Below are positions 15,661 through 25,701 of a stretch of DNA of 64,000 nucleotides, piece by piece. The notes under the pieces are model-generated. The model searched no databases, was not told where the DNA came from, and was given only the letters and a program-made list of their open reading frames with translations. Position 1 is the first letter of the stretch. Each line of letters starts with the position of its first letter. Source of the DNA: Mariprofundus aestuarium (GTDB taxonomy: Bacteria > Pseudomonadota > Zetaproteobacteria > Mariprofundales > Mariprofundaceae); NCBI RefSeq assembly GCF_002795805.1, contig NZ_CP018799.1:2225001-2289000 (forward strand), given 5' to 3'. The position numbers and the translations under genes are program-made.

Positions 15661-17991
15661 CTATGCGTCTAACGCCCTTCTGATGGTTCTGCCAAGCTCA
15701 TCAACTTCGTAGGGCTTATATAGAACGATAACATCGCTCGAATGAACATCACCAAGCCGCTCCTCTTCTTTGTTATATCCTGTGGTAAAAACAACTTTAA
15801 TCTCAGGACGAATCTTCTTCATAAGTCCAACTGCTTCAACACCTCCAAGCTTTGGCATCATGATGTCGGTCACAACGATGGAAATTTCATCTTTATTGGC
15901 CTTGAAAACATCAACGGCCTCTGAACCATCCGAAGCTACCAACACCCGATAACCAATCGATTCCAGCACCTCTTTGCTTGTCTCGAGAATATTTTCTTCA
16001 TCATCGACCAGCAGTATTAGCTCACCAACCCCACTCTCAATCACCTCACGCTGCCGGGGAGAAAACTCAATCTCTTCTGTCTCCTGTAAGGGCAGATAAA
16101 ACAGGAACAGCGCCCCTTCGCCTTCAACGCTCTCAATCTCCATACAAGCCTGGTGGGCATGCATCGCCCCGCTTACCATTGAGAGACCGAGCCCTGTCCC
16201 CTTGCCGATTTTCTTGGTTGTATAAAAGGGCTCGAGAATATGAGGCAGGTCATCCGGGCTGATACCCGCTCCATTATCTCTTATGGAGAGACAAGCGAAG
16301 TTGTCAGCGTCGGTTTCAGGGTGCCTAGCAAGAAAATCACCATCAGCAGAAAACTCGCTTAATTTGATAGATATCAAGGGCTCTTCAACCGTCATTAACG
16401 CATCACAGGCATTGTTGATGAGATTGATCAATGCCTGCTGAAGAAGGTTCGCATCCCAGTTGACTGTCATGGGGAGGGCTCCAACATCCAAATCCAGCCG
16501 GATATTTTCCGGTAGCGAAACCCGATGTACTTTTATGACCTCTTTCAGAAAGAGGGGCAAGTTGATCGGTGTTTTCTGGACCACCCCTTTACGTGCGAAA
16601 GAGAGCAGGTTTTTAATCAACTCAGAACTTTTGAACGAAAGCTTCTCAATAATATCCAGTTTTTCAATCACCTCTGGAAGCTGCGATGCTCGTTTTTTTG
16701 CCAAATATAGGTTGCCGGTAATTCCGGCCAATGAATTATTAAATTCGTGGGCAATACCTCCCACCAGTGTTCCAAGCGCCTCCATCTTCTGAGCCTGATA
16801 GAATCGATTCTCAAGCTCCTCATTCTCGCTCAAATCCTGCTGAAGGCAGACAAAACCGGTCGTTTCACCCAACTCACTCTTGATGGGTGAAATCGTCACC
16901 ATGGCCGGATAGAAACTGCCATCCTTTTTCCTGTCGATCATTTTACCATGCCAGACCTGACCAGAAAGTATGGTATTCCACATCTTTTCATAAAAAAGCG
17001 CTTGTTGCTTGCCGCTCTTAAGAACCTTCGGATTCTGCCCGGCAACTTCATCACTGCTATATCCGGTAAGCTCAGAGAAGGCAGGGTTCACATATTCGAT
17101 GATACCGCTGCTGTCTGTGATCATGATGGATTCACCAGCATGCTCAACAGCCTGAGACAACCTACGCAGTACGGCTTCCGCTTCCTTGGTTTTGCTGACA
17201 TCCACTATCATTGCAGTCAGATAATCAATACCGCCCTGCTCTTTGTGTACGCTGCGCACTGCGAAATGTGTGTGAACAACTTTACCGTCTTTGTGAACAA
17301 ACCGTAGCTCAATTGTATAGTCATCAGTCTCGCCGCTTAATAATGAGTTGATACAACCCTCATCAAGCTTTTGATCATCAGGGCAAACCAACTCAGGCCA
17401 GGACATGTGCATCAATTCATCACGGCTGTAGCCCAGCATGAGGCACAGGGCATCGTTCACCTCTTGCCAGCTCCTGTCGGGGTTAACAATCGCCATACCG
17501 ACAGTAGAGCGTTCGAAATAAGAGCGGAAACGCTCCTGACTTTCAAATTCGAGTGTTTTTAATGCCTTTCGAAGTGCCGTTTCACGTTCGAATATTTTAC
17601 GGTGAAGCCTTATACGGTTAAGCAACTGATTCTCATCCAGTGGCTTTGTCAGGTAGTCAATTGCACCCACTTCATAGCCACGTTTGATAAACTCAGCGCT
17701 CTTGAATACCGCTGTTATAAAAATGATTGGAATATCCCTCGTGCGCCTGGTCATTTTCAAATGTTCTGCAGTTGAATAGCCATCCATCCCGGGCATTTGG
17801 ACATCCAGAAGAATCAGGTCGATGGAGTTCTCAATAGTGGTTGCAAGCGCAGCTTCACCGGAAGAGGCCTGCACTACTTCACAATGCTCCAGTCGCCGAA
17901 GCAGAGACTCAAGCGTGAACAGGTTACTTGGATTGTCATCTACAATCAGGATTTTGAAGGGAATATCATTGCCCGCTGTTAGCTCAACCAT
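15661..17991 (-). CDS. hybrid kinase: receiver, two PAS, HisKA, HATPase, receiver
   Basis: 776 residues, no membrane segment. Order: receiver (about 12-128; ILIVDDN, Asp in LILLDVQMPGMDG), coiled linker, PAS (about 152-270), PAS (275-395), HisKA with H415 in GGIAHEFNNSLAG, HATPase (about 510-640; NLINNACDAL, GTGLGLSM), C-terminal receiver (655-775; LILLVDDEEN, Asp in VVTDIMMPKLGG, Lys in LYKPYE). All catalytic residues look intact. The AHEFNN H-box belongs to the NtrB-like class, unlike the SHELRTP box of the 1352-residue kinase. Its ATG lies inside the 3' end of the CheB-CheR gene (13-base overlap), so the two are translationally coupled. Confidence 0.9.
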   Translation of the reverse strand: MVELTAGNDIPFKILIVDDNPSNLFTLESLLRRLEHCEVVQASSGEAALATTIENSIDLILLDVQMPGMDGYSTAEHLKMTRRTRDIPIIFITAVFKSAEFIKRGYEVGAIDYLTKPLDENQLLNRIRLHRKIFERETALRKALKTLEFESQERFRSYFERSTVGMAIVNPDRSWQEVNDALCLMLGYSRDELMHMSWPELVCPDDQKLDEGCINSLLSGETDDYTIELRFVHKDGKVVHTHFAVRSVHKEQGGIDYLTAMIVDVSKTKEAEAVLRRLSQAVEHAGESIMITDSSGIIEYVNPAFSELTGYSSDEVAGQNPKVLKSGKQQALFYEKMWNTILSGQVWHGKMIDRKKDGSFYPAMVTISPIKSELGETTGFVCLQQDLSENEELENRFYQAQKMEALGTLVGGIAHEFNNSLAGITGNLYLAKKRASQLPEVIEKLDIIEKLSFKSSELIKNLLSFARKGVVQKTPINLPLFLKEVIKVHRVSLPENIRLDLDVGALPMTVNWDANLLQQALINLINNACDALMTVEEPLISIKLSEFSADGDFLARHPETDADNFACLSIRDNGAGISPDDLPHILEPFYTTKKIGKGTGLGLSMVSGAMHAHQACMEIESVEGEGALFLFYLPLQETEEIEFSPRQREVIESGVGELILLVDDEENILETSKEVLESIGYRVLVASDGSEAVDVFKANKDEISIVVTDIMMPKLGGVEAVGLMKKIRPEIKVVFTTGYNKEEERLGDVHSSDVIVLYKPYEVDELGRTIRRALDA

Positions 17992-19658
17992 CGATAAACC
18001 TTCTTTTCTTTGTTTTCAGCTTTAAAATAACGATTACCGTCACCCAAGCTCAGTGACTCTTTATCCCCGAGAGTCAGGAAACCGTCGCGATGCAGGGAGC
18101 GTGAGAAGAGCTGCATTACATGATTTTGCAGCTTATTAGAGAAATAGATAATGACATTACGGCAGAGGATAAGTTGAAATTCATTAAAGACAGCCTCATT
18201 AACCAGTGAATGGCGAAAGAAGAGCACCCTCTCCCGAAGCTCCGGGGCGATTGAGAAGATGTCACCCTGCTTTTCAATATAGTCCGCAAACCTCCGAGCA
18301 CCGCCACTTAATCGATAATTATCCTGGTACTCATCCATCTTCTGGCATGAATAGATGCCGTTTTTTGCCTCATAGAGAATGGATGAATTGATATCCGTTG
18401 CGTAGATGGTAGTTCTCTGCAGCAGCCCCGCCTCCTTGAGCAGAATAGCCAGCGAATACGCCTCCTCACCGCTTGAGCAACCGGCCACCCATATCTTGGT
18501 ATGCGGAAAACTTTCCAGAAACGGGAACACCTTCTGGCGCAGGTAGTCGAGCTGCTCAGGAGACCTGAAGAATGTAGTCACATTGATGGAGAGTGAACTG
18601 AAGAGCAGATCAAAGGCTTCCGGATTTGTCAGAACATCCCGCTGTAGCGAAAAGAAATCGGCAGCGCCACAGCTTTTGAGCATCACTTCGATACGCCGTT
18701 GCAGGGTGCCTGATTGATACTCGGTGAAGTCATAACCGTACTGCTCCCTGACAGCTTCGAGAAAGGAGCTGATCGTGTGCAGGTCGGGTAAGCTGTTCTT
18801 GATCGCAGCACTGGAAAAAAAACTCTGAATTCCCTTTCTGCTAAGAACATGGTCGTAATGGCCGCTGTCGATGCCATTTTGTGGCAGATTCTTTGCCTCG
18901 CACTCTTCAGGGGACTCGATCAATACGGTTGCGCCTTTATCACGTAGAACCTTCAATGCTTCCACACCATCATCGCCATAACCGCAGAGCAGGGCGACCA
19001 TCAGGCTGGATTCATATTCGTATGCCAGTGACTCAAACAACACCTGAATCGATGGTCGTGCAAAGCGGACTTTACGGTCGCGCGTCAGGTAGACCTGTTG
19101 TTCATGAATGCGAAGCTGATGGCCGGGGGGCGCAATATAAATTGTGCCAGGCTCAACCGGCATCATGTGATGCGGCATGAGCACGCTGTAATCAGTACGC
19201 ATTTTCAACAGTTTATCCAGAAGGTTGGTCTGATCCTCGGAGACATGTTGAACAATAAAAACAGTCAACTCAGATAATTGCAGCGATTCGATGATATGAA
19301 GAATTTTCGCAAGGCTGTCTGCCGAGCCACCTAGAGCTAGAGCCTTGAATGTTGGATGCCTTTTGTTCTCACTTATTGCCAGATCATTTCTGGAGTTGAT
19401 TTTTAGTTTATTCAGATAATGAGAAAGGCTCGGGTGATGGGTTCGTATGCGTAGAGGCTTCACGCCCGAGGAGTGAGATGCCAGCACTTTGATCAGCTTC
19501 CCCGGAAGCAGTCGGGCATCAAAAAAGGCAACTTCAGTCGCCATGCCTGCTGAGTCGTTGATGGCATTGATAAGCTCATTCTGCTCTTCGGGTATTGAAA
19601 GCTCGCCCATAACCAGCAGGCGTCTTTTTCCTCCACCATCATGGACAGATAGGCTCAT
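17979..19658 (-). CDS. CheB-CheR fusion: methylesterase and SAM-dependent methyltransferase
   Basis: 559 residues. An N-terminal region of about 100 residues has no clear family. A CheB catalytic domain (about 104-285) follows, with candidate triad S112 in ALGGSADS, H138 in FIVQHVS and D230 in CGYGDDG. The usual GASTGG around the Ser is altered to GGSADS. Then comes CheR (about 290-559), with LSINVTTFFR (356-365), the SAM-binding VAGCSSGEEAYSLA (391-404) and ILCRNVIIYF. CheR methylates and CheB demethylates or deamidates glutamates of chemoreceptors. No chemoreceptor, CheA or CheW is encoded in the window. It overlaps both neighbours by a few bases (4 and 13), which ties it to the hybrid kinases. 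Confidence 0.85.
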   Translation of the reverse strand: MSLSVHDGGGKRRLLVMGELSIPEEQNELINAINDSAGMATEVAFFDARLLPGKLIKVLASHSSGVKPLRIRTHHPSLSHYLNKLKINSRNDLAISENKRHPTFKALALGGSADSLAKILHIIESLQLSELTVFIVQHVSEDQTNLLDKLLKMRTDYSVLMPHHMMPVEPGTIYIAPPGHQLRIHEQQVYLTRDRKVRFARPSIQVLFESLAYEYESSLMVALLCGYGDDGVEALKVLRDKGATVLIESPEECEAKNLPQNGIDSGHYDHVLSRKGIQSFFSSAAIKNSLPDLHTISSFLEAVREQYGYDFTEYQSGTLQRRIEVMLKSCGAADFFSLQRDVLTNPEAFDLLFSSLSINVTTFFRSPEQLDYLRQKVFPFLESFPHTKIWVAGCSSGEEAYSLAILLKEAGLLQRTTIYATDINSSILYEAKNGIYSCQKMDEYQDNYRLSGGARRFADYIEKQGDIFSIAPELRERVLFFRHSLVNEAVFNEFQLILCRNVIIYFSNKLQNHVMQLFSRSLHRDGFLTLGDKESLSLGDGNRYFKAENKEKKVYRWLS

Positions 19659-22600
19659 CTCCCCTTCTCAATCCAGGCATGGCTCAGTTTAATCAGCCTT
19701 TCGTACTCGACAGGTTTGGAGAGATAGTCATTGGCACCGATCTGCAGGCATTTTTCACGATCTTCCTTCAGCGCCTTGGCAGTTAACACGATAATGGGAA
19801 TATCTTTCAATGCATCATCTGCCCTGATCTTGCTGATCGCCTCATAGCCATCCATCTCCGGCATCATGATATCCATCAGGATCAAGTCGAACTGCTCCTC
19901 CTTCAGTTTCTTAAGCGCACTATTACCATTGACTGCATCAACAACCCTCGCTCCGTGTTCCTCAAGCGCCGATGTGATCACAAAGAGGTTTCTGGCATCG
20001 TCATCGGCAACAAGAATGTTACTTCCCTTGAGCACCTTCTGATCAGCATGAACAGGGTTCGGCCGGGCCGGGTCCAGTTGCTGATTAGAAGCCGTGCGAA
20101 GGAAGTGTTCAATATTTTCAATCAACCGGCTTTGCGCCCCGGAAGACTTGACGATGACCGTATCTGTAAACTTGGCAATAGCTGCCTCATCATCGGCATC
20201 TGGGGCTGAGGCGGCGCCGATAACGATAGAGATATCGGGCCACCGACTCCTCAACTCGGCACAGATATCCAGCATTGCTCCTTTAGAGGGGGCTGCATCA
20301 ACGATGGCAAGCAACTTCTCCTGTTCACCTATCAATTCAAGGGATGCTTCCGAATCACTCATGTCGATGACCTGAGTATCCATCGCTTTCGCCAACTCTA
20401 ATATTTCTGCATAAGAGATCGTTTCACCTGCATAAACAAGGATAGATTTCACACCGCTGCTGATCGTCTGAAGAATGGCATGGGTCATATCGGTGATGTC
20501 ATCACTTGTTACCGGCTTCTGCAGGTACTCCAGAGCACCTTGCTTCAGCAGGGCCTCGTCTTTATCCCGGCCGGATACGACATAGACGGGAATAGCCTTG
20601 GTCTGAGCGTTCTTCTTTAGGCGGGCAAGCAGGTCAACGCCATCCATGTCCGGCAGCCCAAGGTCAAGGATAATCCCGGCCGGATGGTATTTGGTGGCCA
20701 TCTTCAACCCCTCTTTGCCACTATGCGCAGTCACCGTTTTGCAGCCATTCTGACGGTTGATGTCGATAACAGCTTTACAAAAATCGCTGTCATCATCGAT
20801 AAGAAGAATTGGGCGACCTTCATCACGGAGCTCTGCACGATCATCGTCTTCTGCCTCTGCATAATCCCGCGCATCTACTGAGGTAGGAGCCTTCTCCTGC
20901 TCCATTTCCCCGGGCAGGTGAACGGTGAATGTGCTCCCCTCGCCCTCTTTACTCTCCACGCTCACCTTTCCGTTGATCAGCTCTGCAAATTTCTTGCTGA
21001 TGGAGAGTCCAAGGCCTGTGCCTCCGAACTCTCTGGAGATGGAGCCATCCACCTGCTGGAACTCATTGAAAATAAGCTCAAGTTTATCTTCAGGGATGCC
21101 AATGCCGGTATCGCTGACCGAAATTCTGATCGGCAGCACTTCATCCTCGATCATTGCAGCAGTAAGGGTAACAGATCCCTGTTTGGTGAATTTCATGGCG
21201 TTGGAGAGAAGGTTGCGCAGGATCTGCAGAAGTTTGTTTTTATCGGTGTTTAGTGATGCATGCAGCCGATCGTCAACAATAAGGCTCAGCCCTTTATTTT
21301 TTGCGCTATCCTCAAACTGGCTCCTCAGCTCATCCAGCAGCTGAGTGGAGTCAAAGCTCTCCTGAATCAGTTCGAACTTACCGGCCTCCACCTTCGAGAG
21401 GTCGAGGATGTCATTGATCAGGCGCAGCAGCTCATTGCCCGAGTGGTGGATAACATTGGCCCGTTTGACATCCTCATCATCGAGATGCCCGTTCTCATTG
21501 CGCATCATCATTTTGGAGAGAAGAATGACCGAGTTGAGCGGGGTGCGCAGCTCATGCGACATATTGGCCAGGAACTCCGATTTATACTTATTGGAGAGCT
21601 CCAACTGCTCAGCCCTTAGGGTGAGTGCCTCTTTTGACTCCTGCAGCTCTTCTGTCTGCATCTGCAGTTGCTGCTGCTGCTCCTCCATCTGGGCATTGGT
21701 CTGCTGCAGCTCCTCTGTCTGTTGCTGCAGTTGCTGCTGCTGCTCCTCCATCTGGGCATTGGTCTGCTGCAGCTCCTCTGTCTGTTGCTGCAGTTGCTGC
21801 TGCTGCTCCTCCATCTGGGTGTTACTCTGCTGAAGGGCACGGCTCTTCTCTTCAGAAACCTTCAGAAGGGTCGAGATTTTACCACTCTGGATGGCCATGT
21901 AGATCAGCGATGCAATGATACTGGCTGATTCGTCAAAGAATTGCTGTTTAAGCTCGGTGAATGGCTCAAATGAGGCGAACTCAACAACGCCACACAGCCC
22001 ACCCTCATAGATCAGCGGGAAGGTAAAGGTATTCAGCGGGGTCTCACTGGTGGTGCCTGTACTGATCTTTCTCTCTTTGGGGATATCCTTGAGCAGGATC
22101 GCTTTGCGCTCACGTGCAACCTGGCCAATAGCCCCCTCTCCCAGCTTGTAGTGGGAGGAGAGGCTGGCTCGCTCGGTAAACATATAGGAGCCTAGAAGAT
22201 CAAGCGTCTCCCCTTCATCTGATTCACTGTAGAGATAGATTACACCATGGCCGGCATCGACATAGCGGCCGATAAAGGAGACAGCCTTTTCCGCCAGTTG
22301 CTGCAGGTTATTCTCACCTGAGAGCTCACGGGTAAGCTGTGTAAGCCCGTCGGAGAGCCACTCCCGGGTCTCATTCTCCTCCCTGTTTTTCTTCAGGGTG
22401 GCAGTCATATTATTGATAGCCATGCTCAACTTGTCCTTGTCGGAGAGAACGTGCACCTGCTGTGAATAATCACCTGAGGAGATCGTGTCGACCTGTGTGG
22501 TCAGCGCCTCCAGGTTGGCAATTACGCTGTCACTCGATTTAAGCATGGCACTGATCTCATCATCCGCCCTGTAGTCAATCTCCTCACGTCGCAGTTCACC

Positions 22601-23713
22601 CTGACTCAGGCGCTGCATCTGGCGGGTAAGGGTTATCAACGGGCTCAGCAGGCTGTTGATGGTGAGGCGGCCGGAGATAAACACGAGCAGAAGCGTCATA
22701 ACAAAGATGATGGCTGATATGGTGACGAACTGGTTGAGCTGGGCCAGCACCACATCTTCATCAATCATACCTACCAGATACCAGTAGTTGGTTTTGTCCT
22801 GGGGGTTGGGGTAGATCTTGGTAAAGCTGATAACCTTATTATCCAGTTCAATAAGGCCGCCCTCCTTTCCGGAGATGGAGGCAAATATTTCGGGGTAATC
22901 GCTGGCAAAGCTGACATGGTGACCCAGAAGGTGGCCCCATGACTTCTCCGCATCGGGGTTGTAATAATAGAAGCCATCTTCCGAGATCAGGAGGTAGTTG
23001 CCATCACTGCCTTCATCGATACTTCTGACAAACGAGAGAAAGTAATCGGCATATATATTGATCACCGCCACACCGTACTTCACATGGTTGGCACCATATA
23101 CCGGACGGGCATACCTCAGCACCGGGATGTGGGGCTTCTCGATTTTGCCATACTCCCTGTTCAGGTCCAGCGGCGAGGTGTAGAGCCCGTCTTCTTCCAT
23201 CATATAGGTTTCACTGAAGTAGGCCTCATGGCGCCTGTCCTGAAGGTTGCGCCCTTTCTCGACATGCACTTCCCCTGTTGCCCTGTCACTACGGATACTG
23301 ATGACCTCAGTCCCGTTGTTATCCAGGAACCGGATCTTGTAGAGATAATCGTAGTTACGCATAAACGCTTCGAATGCGTCTGTCGTGGAACTTTTCCAGA
23401 TGGCGGCATTGCCGGGAACCTTCAGATCCTGCCAGTAGAGGTATCGTGTCAGCCCGTAATAGCTGGATATAAAGTTCATGTCATTGGCAACCAGAGACAA
23501 GAGATCCATGGTGCTGCGGGAGGCATCGTCTGTCTTCTCCACCACCTGCGCCAATGCATGCTGGCGATAGGCATCTCTGGCTGACTGATAGCCGTAATAG
23601 CCGACAACCGCGACAGCGATCGTTACAACCAGATAGAAGAGGGTGAACATTTTCCTGCGGATAGCCAGCTTCTCAATGCCGGTTTTGCGCAATATTGCCT
23701 CACTCCATCTCAT
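19655..23713 (-). CDS. large membrane hybrid kinase: Cache, HAMP, GAF, Gln-rich coiled coil, kinase, three receivers
   Basis: 1352 residues. Order: transmembrane (20-42), Cache-like periplasmic domain (45-330), transmembrane (333-355), HAMP plus a second HAMP-like segment (to about 450), GAF (470-610), Gln/Glu-rich coiled coil with 21-residue repeats (about 626-685), HisKA with H720 in NMSHELRTPLNS, HATPase (820-935), receiver 1 (975-1090; LLIDDDSD, ILDLGLPDMDG), degenerate receiver-like segment (1095-1215; ILVYAGE lacks the acidic pair), receiver 3 (1235-1350; ILVADDDA, LILMDIMMPEMDG). Kinase motifs are intact. The GAF and helix layout suggests signal input from periplasm and cytoplasm. Its stop overlaps the CheB-CheR start (ATGA). 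Confidence 0.9.
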   Translation of the reverse strand: MRWSEAILRKTGIEKLAIRRKMFTLFYLVVTIAVAVVGYYGYQSARDAYRQHALAQVVEKTDDASRSTMDLLSLVANDMNFISSYYGLTRYLYWQDLKVPGNAAIWKSSTTDAFEAFMRNYDYLYKIRFLDNNGTEVISIRSDRATGEVHVEKGRNLQDRRHEAYFSETYMMEEDGLYTSPLDLNREYGKIEKPHIPVLRYARPVYGANHVKYGVAVINIYADYFLSFVRSIDEGSDGNYLLISEDGFYYYNPDAEKSWGHLLGHHVSFASDYPEIFASISGKEGGLIELDNKVISFTKIYPNPQDKTNYWYLVGMIDEDVVLAQLNQFVTISAIIFVMTLLLVFISGRLTINSLLSPLITLTRQMQRLSQGELRREEIDYRADDEISAMLKSSDSVIANLEALTTQVDTISSGDYSQQVHVLSDKDKLSMAINNMTATLKKNREENETREWLSDGLTQLTRELSGENNLQQLAEKAVSFIGRYVDAGHGVIYLYSESDEGETLDLLGSYMFTERASLSSHYKLGEGAIGQVARERKAILLKDIPKERKISTGTTSETPLNTFTFPLIYEGGLCGVVEFASFEPFTELKQQFFDESASIIASLIYMAIQSGKISTLLKVSEEKSRALQQSNTQMEEQQQQLQQQTEELQQTNAQMEEQQQQLQQQTEELQQTNAQMEEQQQQLQMQTEELQESKEALTLRAEQLELSNKYKSEFLANMSHELRTPLNSVILLSKMMMRNENGHLDDEDVKRANVIHHSGNELLRLINDILDLSKVEAGKFELIQESFDSTQLLDELRSQFEDSAKNKGLSLIVDDRLHASLNTDKNKLLQILRNLLSNAMKFTKQGSVTLTAAMIEDEVLPIRISVSDTGIGIPEDKLELIFNEFQQVDGSISREFGGTGLGLSISKKFAELINGKVSVESKEGEGSTFTVHLPGEMEQEKAPTSVDARDYAEAEDDDRAELRDEGRPILLIDDDSDFCKAVIDINRQNGCKTVTAHSGKEGLKMATKYHPAGIILDLGLPDMDGVDLLARLKKNAQTKAIPVYVVSGRDKDEALLKQGALEYLQKPVTSDDITDMTHAILQTISSGVKSILVYAGETISYAEILELAKAMDTQVIDMSDSEASLELIGEQEKLLAIVDAAPSKGAMLDICAELRSRWPDISIVIGAASAPDADDEAAIAKFTDTVIVKSSGAQSRLIENIEHFLRTASNQQLDPARPNPVHADQKVLKGSNILVADDDARNLFVITSALEEHGARVVDAVNGNSALKKLKEEQFDLILMDIMMPEMDGYEAISKIRADDALKDIPIIVLTAKALKEDREKCLQIGANDYLSKPVEYERLIKLSHAWIEKGR
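21662..21836 (-). repeat. 63-bp tandem repeat encoding a Gln/Glu-rich coiled coil
   Basis: A 63-base unit is repeated at 21662, 21725 and 21788 (the third copy partly diverged). The first two copies are almost identical in DNA. Each codes for 21 residues, three heptads, of the pattern Q-M-E-E-Q4-L-Q3-T-E-E-L-Q-Q-T-N-A. The segment sits between the GAF and HisKA domains of the 1352-residue kinase, where a signalling helix is expected. Near-identity of the units suggests recent expansion by slippage or unequal crossing-over. Confidence 0.9.
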
Positions 23714-23722
23714 CTCAGGCTC

Positions 23723-24658
23723 CTATCTTAGCTGTTCGATCAAGCGCAGCTTTCTGGTCACCCAGCTTATGAGCTGCTGCGAATCGGCCGGTACCTTTCC
23801 TTCAAAACGCTCTGCCGGTGGGGCAATTGTAGTGATATCAAGGCTTGCCTTGAGCGTCTGCAGCTCGGCAAAGGCCATACCCACCATATTGAAAACATCG
23901 GATGGCTTTACATCTTCACTCTGCTCAAATGCTGAAAAGTCGGTGCGCCCGATACCAGCCTGCCCCTGCAGCCGCTGAATCTCACCCATTAGTGCAAACA
24001 CGGAGGCCAATACATCGACAGGCTTGGCACCTTCGACCTTTGCTGGAGGGAAGGTCTGATCATCGACAAAGAGGTGGCGAAGAATGTCATCAACATCATG
24101 ATCAATCTTCATGACAACAGCGAACACATGGTTGGGTAAAATCGGCGCTTGATTAAGCAGTTCAATATTCAGCGATATCTGGTGAAGCTTGTTGAAAACA
24201 TCAATCGGCCTTTTTCCTGAATAGCTTTTTGCGGCAGAAACCTGAGCTGAGATGCCCAGGCGGGTCTTGATAATTCTAAGTTCTGTGAGGATTCTCTGGG
24301 TCTGTTCATAAACCAGCTCTGAGTCCACAGACATCTTCGGTTCCAGAGAAACTATGCTGAAACGGGAGAAGCCGTTCTTTTCCCGCAAAATCTGGACTTT
24401 GGTCAGTACAACATAGGCCATCTCAAAAACGTGGCGCGGTTTCAACTCAGCCTTGTAGGGCTTCGGATGAATTCTTTCGGAGATCTTGAAGTGCCTGAGC
24501 AGCAGCTCCACCTCTTTCTCAATCTGAACCGCCTCTGCATAGGCCTGGGATGGGCTGATAAATACCGACACGTCCTGAGCAACAGTCGTACCTGCATACA
24601 GGAATAACAGCCCCACCAGACAAATGAGGTGCTTCAAAACAACTCGGAAACAGATCAT
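23723..24658 (-). CDS. secreted protein of about eight 38-residue helical repeats, unknown function
   Basis: 311 residues. The signal peptide runs to about residue 28 (TTVAQ, then DVSV). The mature part is a chain of degenerate repeats whose anchor is a Pro followed by a helix. Anchor prolines or equivalents lie at 36, 74, 112 (Asp), 151, 175, 213, 252 and 290, so the spacing is 38-39 except one gap of 24. The clearest units read KPRHVFEM, RPIDVFNK, KPVDVLAS and KPSDVFNM, each followed by an amphipathic helix ending near -EI/VQ-L. I do not recognise the family. Its position between a CHASE3 protein (ATGA overlap at 24655-24658) and the Cache-containing kinase suggests a periplasmic partner of one of those sensors. 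Confidence 0.75.
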   Translation of the reverse strand: MICFRVVLKHLICLVGLLFLYAGTTVAQDVSVFISPSQAYAEAVQIEKEVELLLRHFKISERIHPKPYKAELKPRHVFEMAYVVLTKVQILREKNGFSRFSIVSLEPKMSVDSELVYEQTQRILTELRIIKTRLGISAQVSAAKSYSGKRPIDVFNKLHQISLNIELLNQAPILPNHVFAVVMKIDHDVDDILRHLFVDDQTFPPAKVEGAKPVDVLASVFALMGEIQRLQGQAGIGRTDFSAFEQSEDVKPSDVFNMVGMAFAELQTLKASLDITTIAPPAERFEGKVPADSQQLISWVTRKLRLIEQLR

Positions 24659-25701
24659 CGATCACCTCCAAGCCAATTTTTCCTCTGCAGAAACCAGTAA
24701 CCGAGCAGAGCCGCCACAATGGCACTAATGAGGGTGTATAACAGTCCGAAGTAAGTAATCGCTGAGACTTCCTGAATACGCCCTACTCTCAAGCGGCGCT
24801 CCACATCTTCAAAGGCAGCCAACTCGACGCGGATCTGATCCATGATTGACTTCCCGGTATCCGCCTTCACCATGTTAATTACTTCACCCAATTCCACCAA
24901 CTTCTCATTCATCTTTTTGCGCGCATTGATCTCGGGAGTGCCTGCCATGATCTGCCATTGACTGGCATCCTGAAACATCGCCTCAACATGAGGCAGAGCC
25001 TCCTGTGATTGCCTGCGGCAATAGCTGGTTAATTGATCAAAATACTTAACAAGCATTTCGCGGCCACTGTCATATGGCTCGAGAAACTCATCCTGACCAG
25101 TGATCAGAAAGCCGCGTTCGCCTGTCTCCATATCAACCATGGCCTTGGTGACCTGAAGCAGCAATAGGCGCCCTTCAGTCAGACCATCCCGTTTGAAAAC
25201 CTGATCAAGCAGGTCTGCCCGAACTCGAATGCGGTCTAAAATCTTCTTACCTGTGCGCTCAACCAGCATAGCCTGCAGCCTTGCCATGCTGCCGCCTGTT
25301 ACATCCACCTCGCGACGCTTATTTATCTCGGGTATGGCGGCCTGTTCCTTCCATTGATTGATTAGCCGTCCAATCTTCTGGGCCTGCTCTACCTGAGGTG
25401 GATTGTCCGCCACCAACTCTGAAAGATAGCCAATGGCATTATCGATCTTGTTATCAGCCAGATTGTAGGGTTCGAGAAAACGCTCCTCACCGGTCAGCAG
25501 GAAGCCGCGCTCTGAAGTTTCCATATCGACTATCAATTTTGCAATTAAACCGGCCTGCTCTATCACCTGATCAGTATGATGAACCCACTCATTTTTTTCT
25601 TTTATGAGTATCATTGAAACCGAACTAACCAACCCAATAGCAAGAACCAGTAAAAAGGGGGCGGATGCCTTGAGCCAAGGTCTTCTTGTGTCTGGAATCA
25701 T
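24655..25701 (-). CDS. membrane protein with two tandem CHASE3 domains and no output domain
   Basis: 348 residues. A transmembrane segment (about 13-33) is followed by two CHASE3-like helical domains (about 35-165 and 170-300) and a second transmembrane segment (about 318-340), then a short cytoplasmic tail. Each CHASE3 unit has the hallmark METxERGFLxTGxxxFLEPY and a later conserved segment with PEINxR/xK. CHASE3 normally senses signals for attached kinases or cyclases, but no transmitter is attached here. It is the first gene of the signalling cluster and overlaps the next gene by 4 bases. It likely acts with the 1352-residue kinase. The start codon has no obvious ribosome binding site. Confidence 0.8.
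   Translation of the reverse strand: MIPDTRRPWLKASAPFLLVLAIGLVSSVSMILIKEKNEWVHHTDQVIEQAGLIAKLIVDMETSERGFLLTGEERFLEPYNLADNKIDNAIGYLSELVADNPPQVEQAQKIGRLINQWKEQAAIPEINKRREVDVTGGSMARLQAMLVERTGKKILDRIRVRADLLDQVFKRDGLTEGRLLLLQVTKAMVDMETGERGFLITGQDEFLEPYDSGREMLVKYFDQLTSYCRRQSQEALPHVEAMFQDASQWQIMAGTPEINARKKMNEKLVELGEVINMVKADTGKSIMDQIRVELAAFEDVERRLRVGRIQEVSAITYFGLLYTLISAIVAALLGYWFLQRKNWLGGDR

Follow-up and report, generated by a model that had tools for sequence, protein, structure and literature searches.

Solute-binding protein (SBP) co-receptors such as LuxP, which serves LuxQ, are exported soluble proteins encoded beside a membrane receptor; the SBP gene adjoins the kinase gene in 10 of 11 characterised SBP-kinase pairs, and the partners of SBPs comprise kinases, chemoreceptors and diguanylate cyclases (PMC11113362). 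Helical accessory proteins have also been described. CpxP is a small, all-helical periplasmic accessory inhibitor paired with the sensor kinase CpxA (PMC4160245), and the mostly helical QseG, an outer-membrane lipoprotein whose gene is co-transcribed with that of its kinase, binds the periplasmic sensor domain of QseE, straddling this 4HB sensor in a 2:2 complex (PMC12691602). Here we analysed a 64,000-nucleotide stretch of Mariprofundus aestuarium DNA (contig NZ_CP018799.1, positions 2,225,001 to 2,289,000; hereafter the window), in which a secreted eight-helix repeat protein of 311 aa, termed REP, was delineated from its open reading frame, signal peptide and helices (23723..24658, minus strand). 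REP shares with SBP co-receptors its soluble export, its position beside a membrane receptor gene and the same spread of receptor classes; SBPs, however, are two-lobed alpha/beta proteins related to transporter components, whereas REP is all-helical and repeat-built, and Pfam and NCBIfam scans gave no match to an SBP family. It is larger than CpxP, internally duplicated, partnered with MCPs and GGDEF proteins as well as kinases, and without a Pfam match to the CpxP family; unlike QseG, it carries no lipobox and adjoins mostly dCache-type partners. The best explanation is that REP is used in the manner of LuxP/LuxQ or CpxP/CpxA, yet is built on an unrelated helical-repeat scaffold.

The REP gene comes second in a run of five closely coupled minus-strand genes, whose junctions are overlaps of 4 or 13 bp or a gap of 9 bp. 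The gene upstream (24655..25701, minus strand), whose stop and the REP start share 4 bp, encodes a membrane protein that carries two CHASE3 domains but lacks a cytoplasmic output domain; scanning for promoters ahead of this CHASE3 gene gave consensus matches only, near the shuffled expectation. Downstream lies a hybrid histidine kinase of 1352 aa (19655..23713, minus strand) with dCache, HAMP, GAF, signalling-helix repeats, HisKA, HATPase_c and receiver domains, and we propose its N-terminal membrane and dCache / HK_sensor_dom_bact (PF21623) ectodomain region (22679..23713, minus strand) as the docking partner of REP. An earlier note on this DNA had placed REP between two membrane sensors, which agrees with this arrangement. 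It had also referred to CheB-CheR kinases; in the window, the CheB-CheR protein is a standalone fusion of methylesterase and methyltransferase that has no kinase domain (559 aa; 17979..19658, minus strand) and overlaps the hybrid kinase stop by 4 bp. The last gene of the cassette encodes a soluble REC-PAS-PAS-HisKA-HATPase-REC hybrid kinase (15661..17991, minus strand) and overlaps CheB-CheR by 13 bp. Within the 1352-aa kinase, a tandem 63-bp repeat (21641..21819, minus strand; 2.8 copies, 96% match) gives rise to a Gln/Glu-rich coiled stretch of signalling helix that precedes HisKA, and the copy number of this repeat may vary between strains.

The N-terminus of REP (residues ~1-28) is hydrophobic and signal-peptide-like, ending ...TVAQ. 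Inspection of the sequence revealed no lipobox, no further membrane-spanning stretch and no cysteine in the mature chain, and no catalytic-looking motif was seen. None of the fetched relatives has REP fused into a receptor between transmembrane helices: it is a standalone exported chain. The signal peptide and the lack of a second transmembrane stretch uphold the view that REP is secreted. A Sec-exported, soluble periplasmic protein is the best explanation, and belongs to the whole co-sensor reading developed below, in which we place fairly good confidence.

The whole-REP AlphaFold2 model, computed from a 31-row alignment, is all-helical and confident (pLDDT 93.3, pTM 0.86), with helices at residues 36-56, 74-94, 113-133, 151-169, 175-195, 213-233, 252-272 and 290-309. 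Anchor positions that the earlier note had read from the sequence (36, 74, 112, 151, 175, 213, 252 and 290) fall within one residue of these helix starts. Of its description of eight 38-residue repeats, the eight helices and the repeat-built chain stand, but the equal units do not: the repeat is two-level, in that a block of 139 aa with four helices, spaced by steps of 38, 39, 38 and 24 residues, is present twice. The best off-diagonal self-alignment of mature REP scored 130 at an offset of 139 residues, which is significant against 60 shuffles (mean 29.6, sd 4.6, maximum 49), and ungapped autocorrelation peaked at lags 77 (z 4.6) and 38 (z 3.8), the 95th percentile of the null for the maximum over lags being 3.4. 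Because the strongest self-match lies at 139 residues and the fourth step is 24, a chain of eight equal 38-mers was rejected. Profiles of the two blocks, from 31 homologues each, aligned over 137 columns with E=1.7e-23 (hhalign). Block 1 spans residues ~34-172 and, predicted alone as residues 30-172 (24143..24571, minus strand), again gave four helices with high confidence (pLDDT 91.3, pTM 0.88); the homologous block 2 spans residues ~173-311 and was delimited as residues 171-311 (23726..24148, minus strand).

This anatomy is conserved. Cap-to-cap distances are 38-39 residues in most of the 31 homologues, down to ~18% identity, and the step from the fourth to the fifth cap is 24 residues in 30 of the 31. 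The unit consensus reads [TSK]-P-[SA]-[DH]-V-[YF], with hydrophobic residues at offsets 3, 7, 10, 14 and 17 counted from the proline, frequently an acidic residue at offset 13, and L-G-I closing the helix. Among the polar residues, R92, Q119, R122, E126, K131, D188, R229, Q231, Q267 and K270 are invariant. Links between helices are ordered in the model and 17-18 residues long; their near-invariant length and the high confidence within them suggest that the links are not loose loops but cross along the helices.

We found no known family to which REP could be assigned, in keeping with its first description as unrecognised. No Pfam or NCBIfam family is common to its members, none of 31 members has a CpxP/Spy-type match at E<=0.1 or another Pfam match, Pfam repeat families gave no match, and neither PDB sequences (no credible match) nor a comparison of the whole-REP model with PDB and viral folds (no match at E<=0.001) identified a relative. 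Stray weak matches in single members (PexRD54_WY, HTH_33, PRK12295) were inconsistent across the family and were discarded, and no description of the family was found in the literature. REP is best explained as the founding example of an undescribed protein family.

Three known architectures invite comparison. CHASE3 and 4HB_MCP sensor domains likewise have four helices in ~140 aa, are periplasmic and occur in the same receptors, but REP shows no profile similarity to them and differs in its 21-residue helices and ordered 17-residue links; homology was rejected at hhalign probabilities of 0.4% and 0.2%, respectively. A TPR-like alpha-solenoid has two antiparallel helices per repeat of 34-38 residues, whereas REP has one 21-residue helix and one 17-residue link per 38 residues. 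The best Foldseek matches of a single block were long-chain four-helix cytokines (IL-11, prolactin, G-CSF), whose fold is an up-up-down-down bundle and whose helices are joined by long crossing links, as those of REP may be; these matches were consistent but non-significant, and at E>=0.08 and a TM-score of ~0.3 they show neither homology nor a common fold. We tentatively suggest, at somewhat less than even confidence, that the fold is new, with one 21-residue helix and an ordered 17-residue crossing link repeated in a run of mostly parallel helices, and that, jointly with this, dedicated periplasmic co-receptors of the REP kind may form a general class that is likewise new, adapted in evolution to histidine kinases, chemoreceptors and c-di-GMP enzymes. 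A confident model with no PDB match makes REP a good target for structure determination.

We then turned to the neighbours of REP. Beyond the window, 63 distinct relatives were collected, of which two lie at contig ends, leaving 61 readable neighbourhoods. A receptor-type gene directly adjoins REP in all 61, a count that is non-independent in that it includes related species. The partners are 46 dCache-type histidine kinases, 13 MCPs and 2 GGDEF proteins, some of the kinase labels resting on an N-terminal fragment or a weak domain match. A script assigned 44 kinase and 13 MCP neighbours, and the other four were settled by hand: at loci L039 and L056 the neighbour of REP is a dCache kinase (start overlap; contig-end fragment), and the two REP genes of L148 (7260-8204 and 9940-10854) adjoin PAS-GGDEF and PAS-GGDEF-EAL proteins. 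The first receptor gene of L148 appears split over two frames. REP and receptor genes mostly overlap or lie <= ~20 bp apart; as background, the whole 2.54-Mb genome has only 65 HATPase_c places. Tested in reverse across 398 genomes, the 21 closest relatives of the window dCache region (>=154.8 bits) all lie beside REP, and the next dCache relative, at 115.9 bits, is in a genome without REP. In multi-copy genomes (G045, G051, G405), each REP copy is paired with its own receptor. The class of partner tracks the REP tree, needing no more than the minimum of 3 changes. Some MCP partners carry 4HB sensors; one MCP beside REP (L068:5492-8473, minus strand) ends in a hemerythrin domain at its C-terminus, a hint of oxygen sensing.

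Fixed co-occurrence with CheB-CheR, which the earlier note had put forward for checking, did not hold: CheB-CheR is common in the histidine-kinase-linked REP clade and absent elsewhere, with several kinase-linked loci and all MCP-linked loci lacking it. The fixed partner of REP is instead the receptor, a dCache histidine kinase or, in other clades, an MCP or GGDEF protein. A CHASE3 gene occurs near REP at only three other loci; at L035 and L038 it encodes the same type of outputless tandem-CHASE3 protein, and at L040 a longer CHASE3-HAMP-GAF version. This bears on the idea that REP is a scaffold that clusters receptors, or one whose two blocks bridge the CHASE3 protein and the dCache kinase. 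The duplication could let REP engage two partners, and an outputless CHASE3 protein is encoded next to REP in the window operon, but with those three loci (L035, L038, L040) as the only others in which its gene was found the CHASE3 protein is no constant partner, and we regard a scaffold as improbable.

A sequence search found REP in 31, and a profile search in 32, of the 398 genomes sampled from the phylum. Its relatives occur in Pseudomonadota, Campylobacterota and Desulfobulbaceae (cable bacteria, including Candidatus Electrothrix), and further carriers are Magnetococcales, Methylococcales and gammaproteobacterial symbionts. A contig search with a single REP sequence gave no loci, whereas the REP alignment as query gave 28; plasmid records contained no match. 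Within the genus the gene is patchy, being present in 2 of 22 Mariprofundus-like genomes (G008 and G014, among G001-G022) besides the window genome. Double-length forms of ~600-640 aa consist of two full copies, that is, four blocks; they adjoin dCache kinases (L056, L057, L058, L059, L146, L147, L150, L151, L152, L154) and come from several families as well as Campylobacterota. On the REP tree, members from Campylobacterota and Desulfobulbaceae group with Pseudomonadota within the kinase-linked clade, a pattern suggestive of cassette transfer. A patchy cassette that crosses phyla is also what would be seen if REP were passively hitch-hiking in a mobile signalling unit. We find this very improbable: the partner type changes by clade between kinase, MCP and GGDEF protein while adjacency stays at 61/61, and the cassette is otherwise variable (CheB-CheR, CHASE3, second kinase).

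Divergence of REP tracks the receptor ectodomain and not the kinase core. Across 32 loci, REP and ectodomain divergence were correlated (r=0.815), and the partial correlation given the kinase core was 0.673 (permutation p=0.001), whereas that between REP and the kinase core given the ectodomain was 0.132 (p=0.08). The correlation may also have another cause than contact, namely that both proteins face the same environment. Since operon-mates can be targets as well as inputs, we further considered that REP might be an enzyme, scavenger or structural envelope protein under receptor control, and thus an output. Co-divergence with the ectodomain rather than the signalling core argues against such a role, as do MCP and GGDEF partners, which do not directly regulate transcription, and a chain devoid of cysteine and of catalytic-looking motifs; we judge it unlikely.

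Taken together, soluble export, pairing with three output classes and co-divergence with the ectodomain fit a reading in which REP is a dedicated periplasmic co-sensor for the receptor encoded beside it, and we consider this quite probable. We go no higher because adjacency has misled before: in two Pseudomonas kinases with neighbouring SBP genes, the SBPs had no role in activation (PMC11113362). Most likely, exported REP would dock on the periplasmic domain of its receptor (for the window, the dCache part of the 1352-aa kinase) and would alter receptor signalling upon binding a small ligand or sensing an envelope condition. The hybrid kinase, together with the soluble kinase at the end of the cassette, would then carry the output in the window. 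By analogy with RsbK, a hybrid kinase whose signalling helix is methylated by RsbM (PMC4574943), CheB-CheR probably tunes the hybrid kinase by methylating its Gln/Glu-rich signalling helix.

The main rival is a ligand-independent regulator that keeps the receptor inactive (or active) and signals the state of the envelope, as CpxP does on CpxA (PMC4160245) and QseG on QseE (PMC12691602). It overlaps the co-sensor reading, which leaves the input open. An all-helical REP and the 4HB sensors of some MCP partners are in line with such a regulator; against it, the 31 members gave no Spy/CpxP-type or other Pfam match, and most partners have a dCache-type region, whose fold is often a ligand binder in its own right. 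It is possible, though we rate it at about one chance in three.

We return to the co-sensor reading for its implications. To our knowledge, the signal has not been recognised for many dCache kinases and chemoreceptors. Among those that carry REP are pelagic iron oxidisers, magnetotactic bacteria, cable bacteria and relatives of Sulfurimonas and Arcobacter, groups known from gradients of oxygen, iron or sulfide, and on these grounds redox-gradient sensing by REP systems may be offered as a guess. If REP does supply a missing first step, this would account for a possible failure of the receptor domain to respond by itself, and REP, soluble and predictably folded, would provide a handle for finding the signal.
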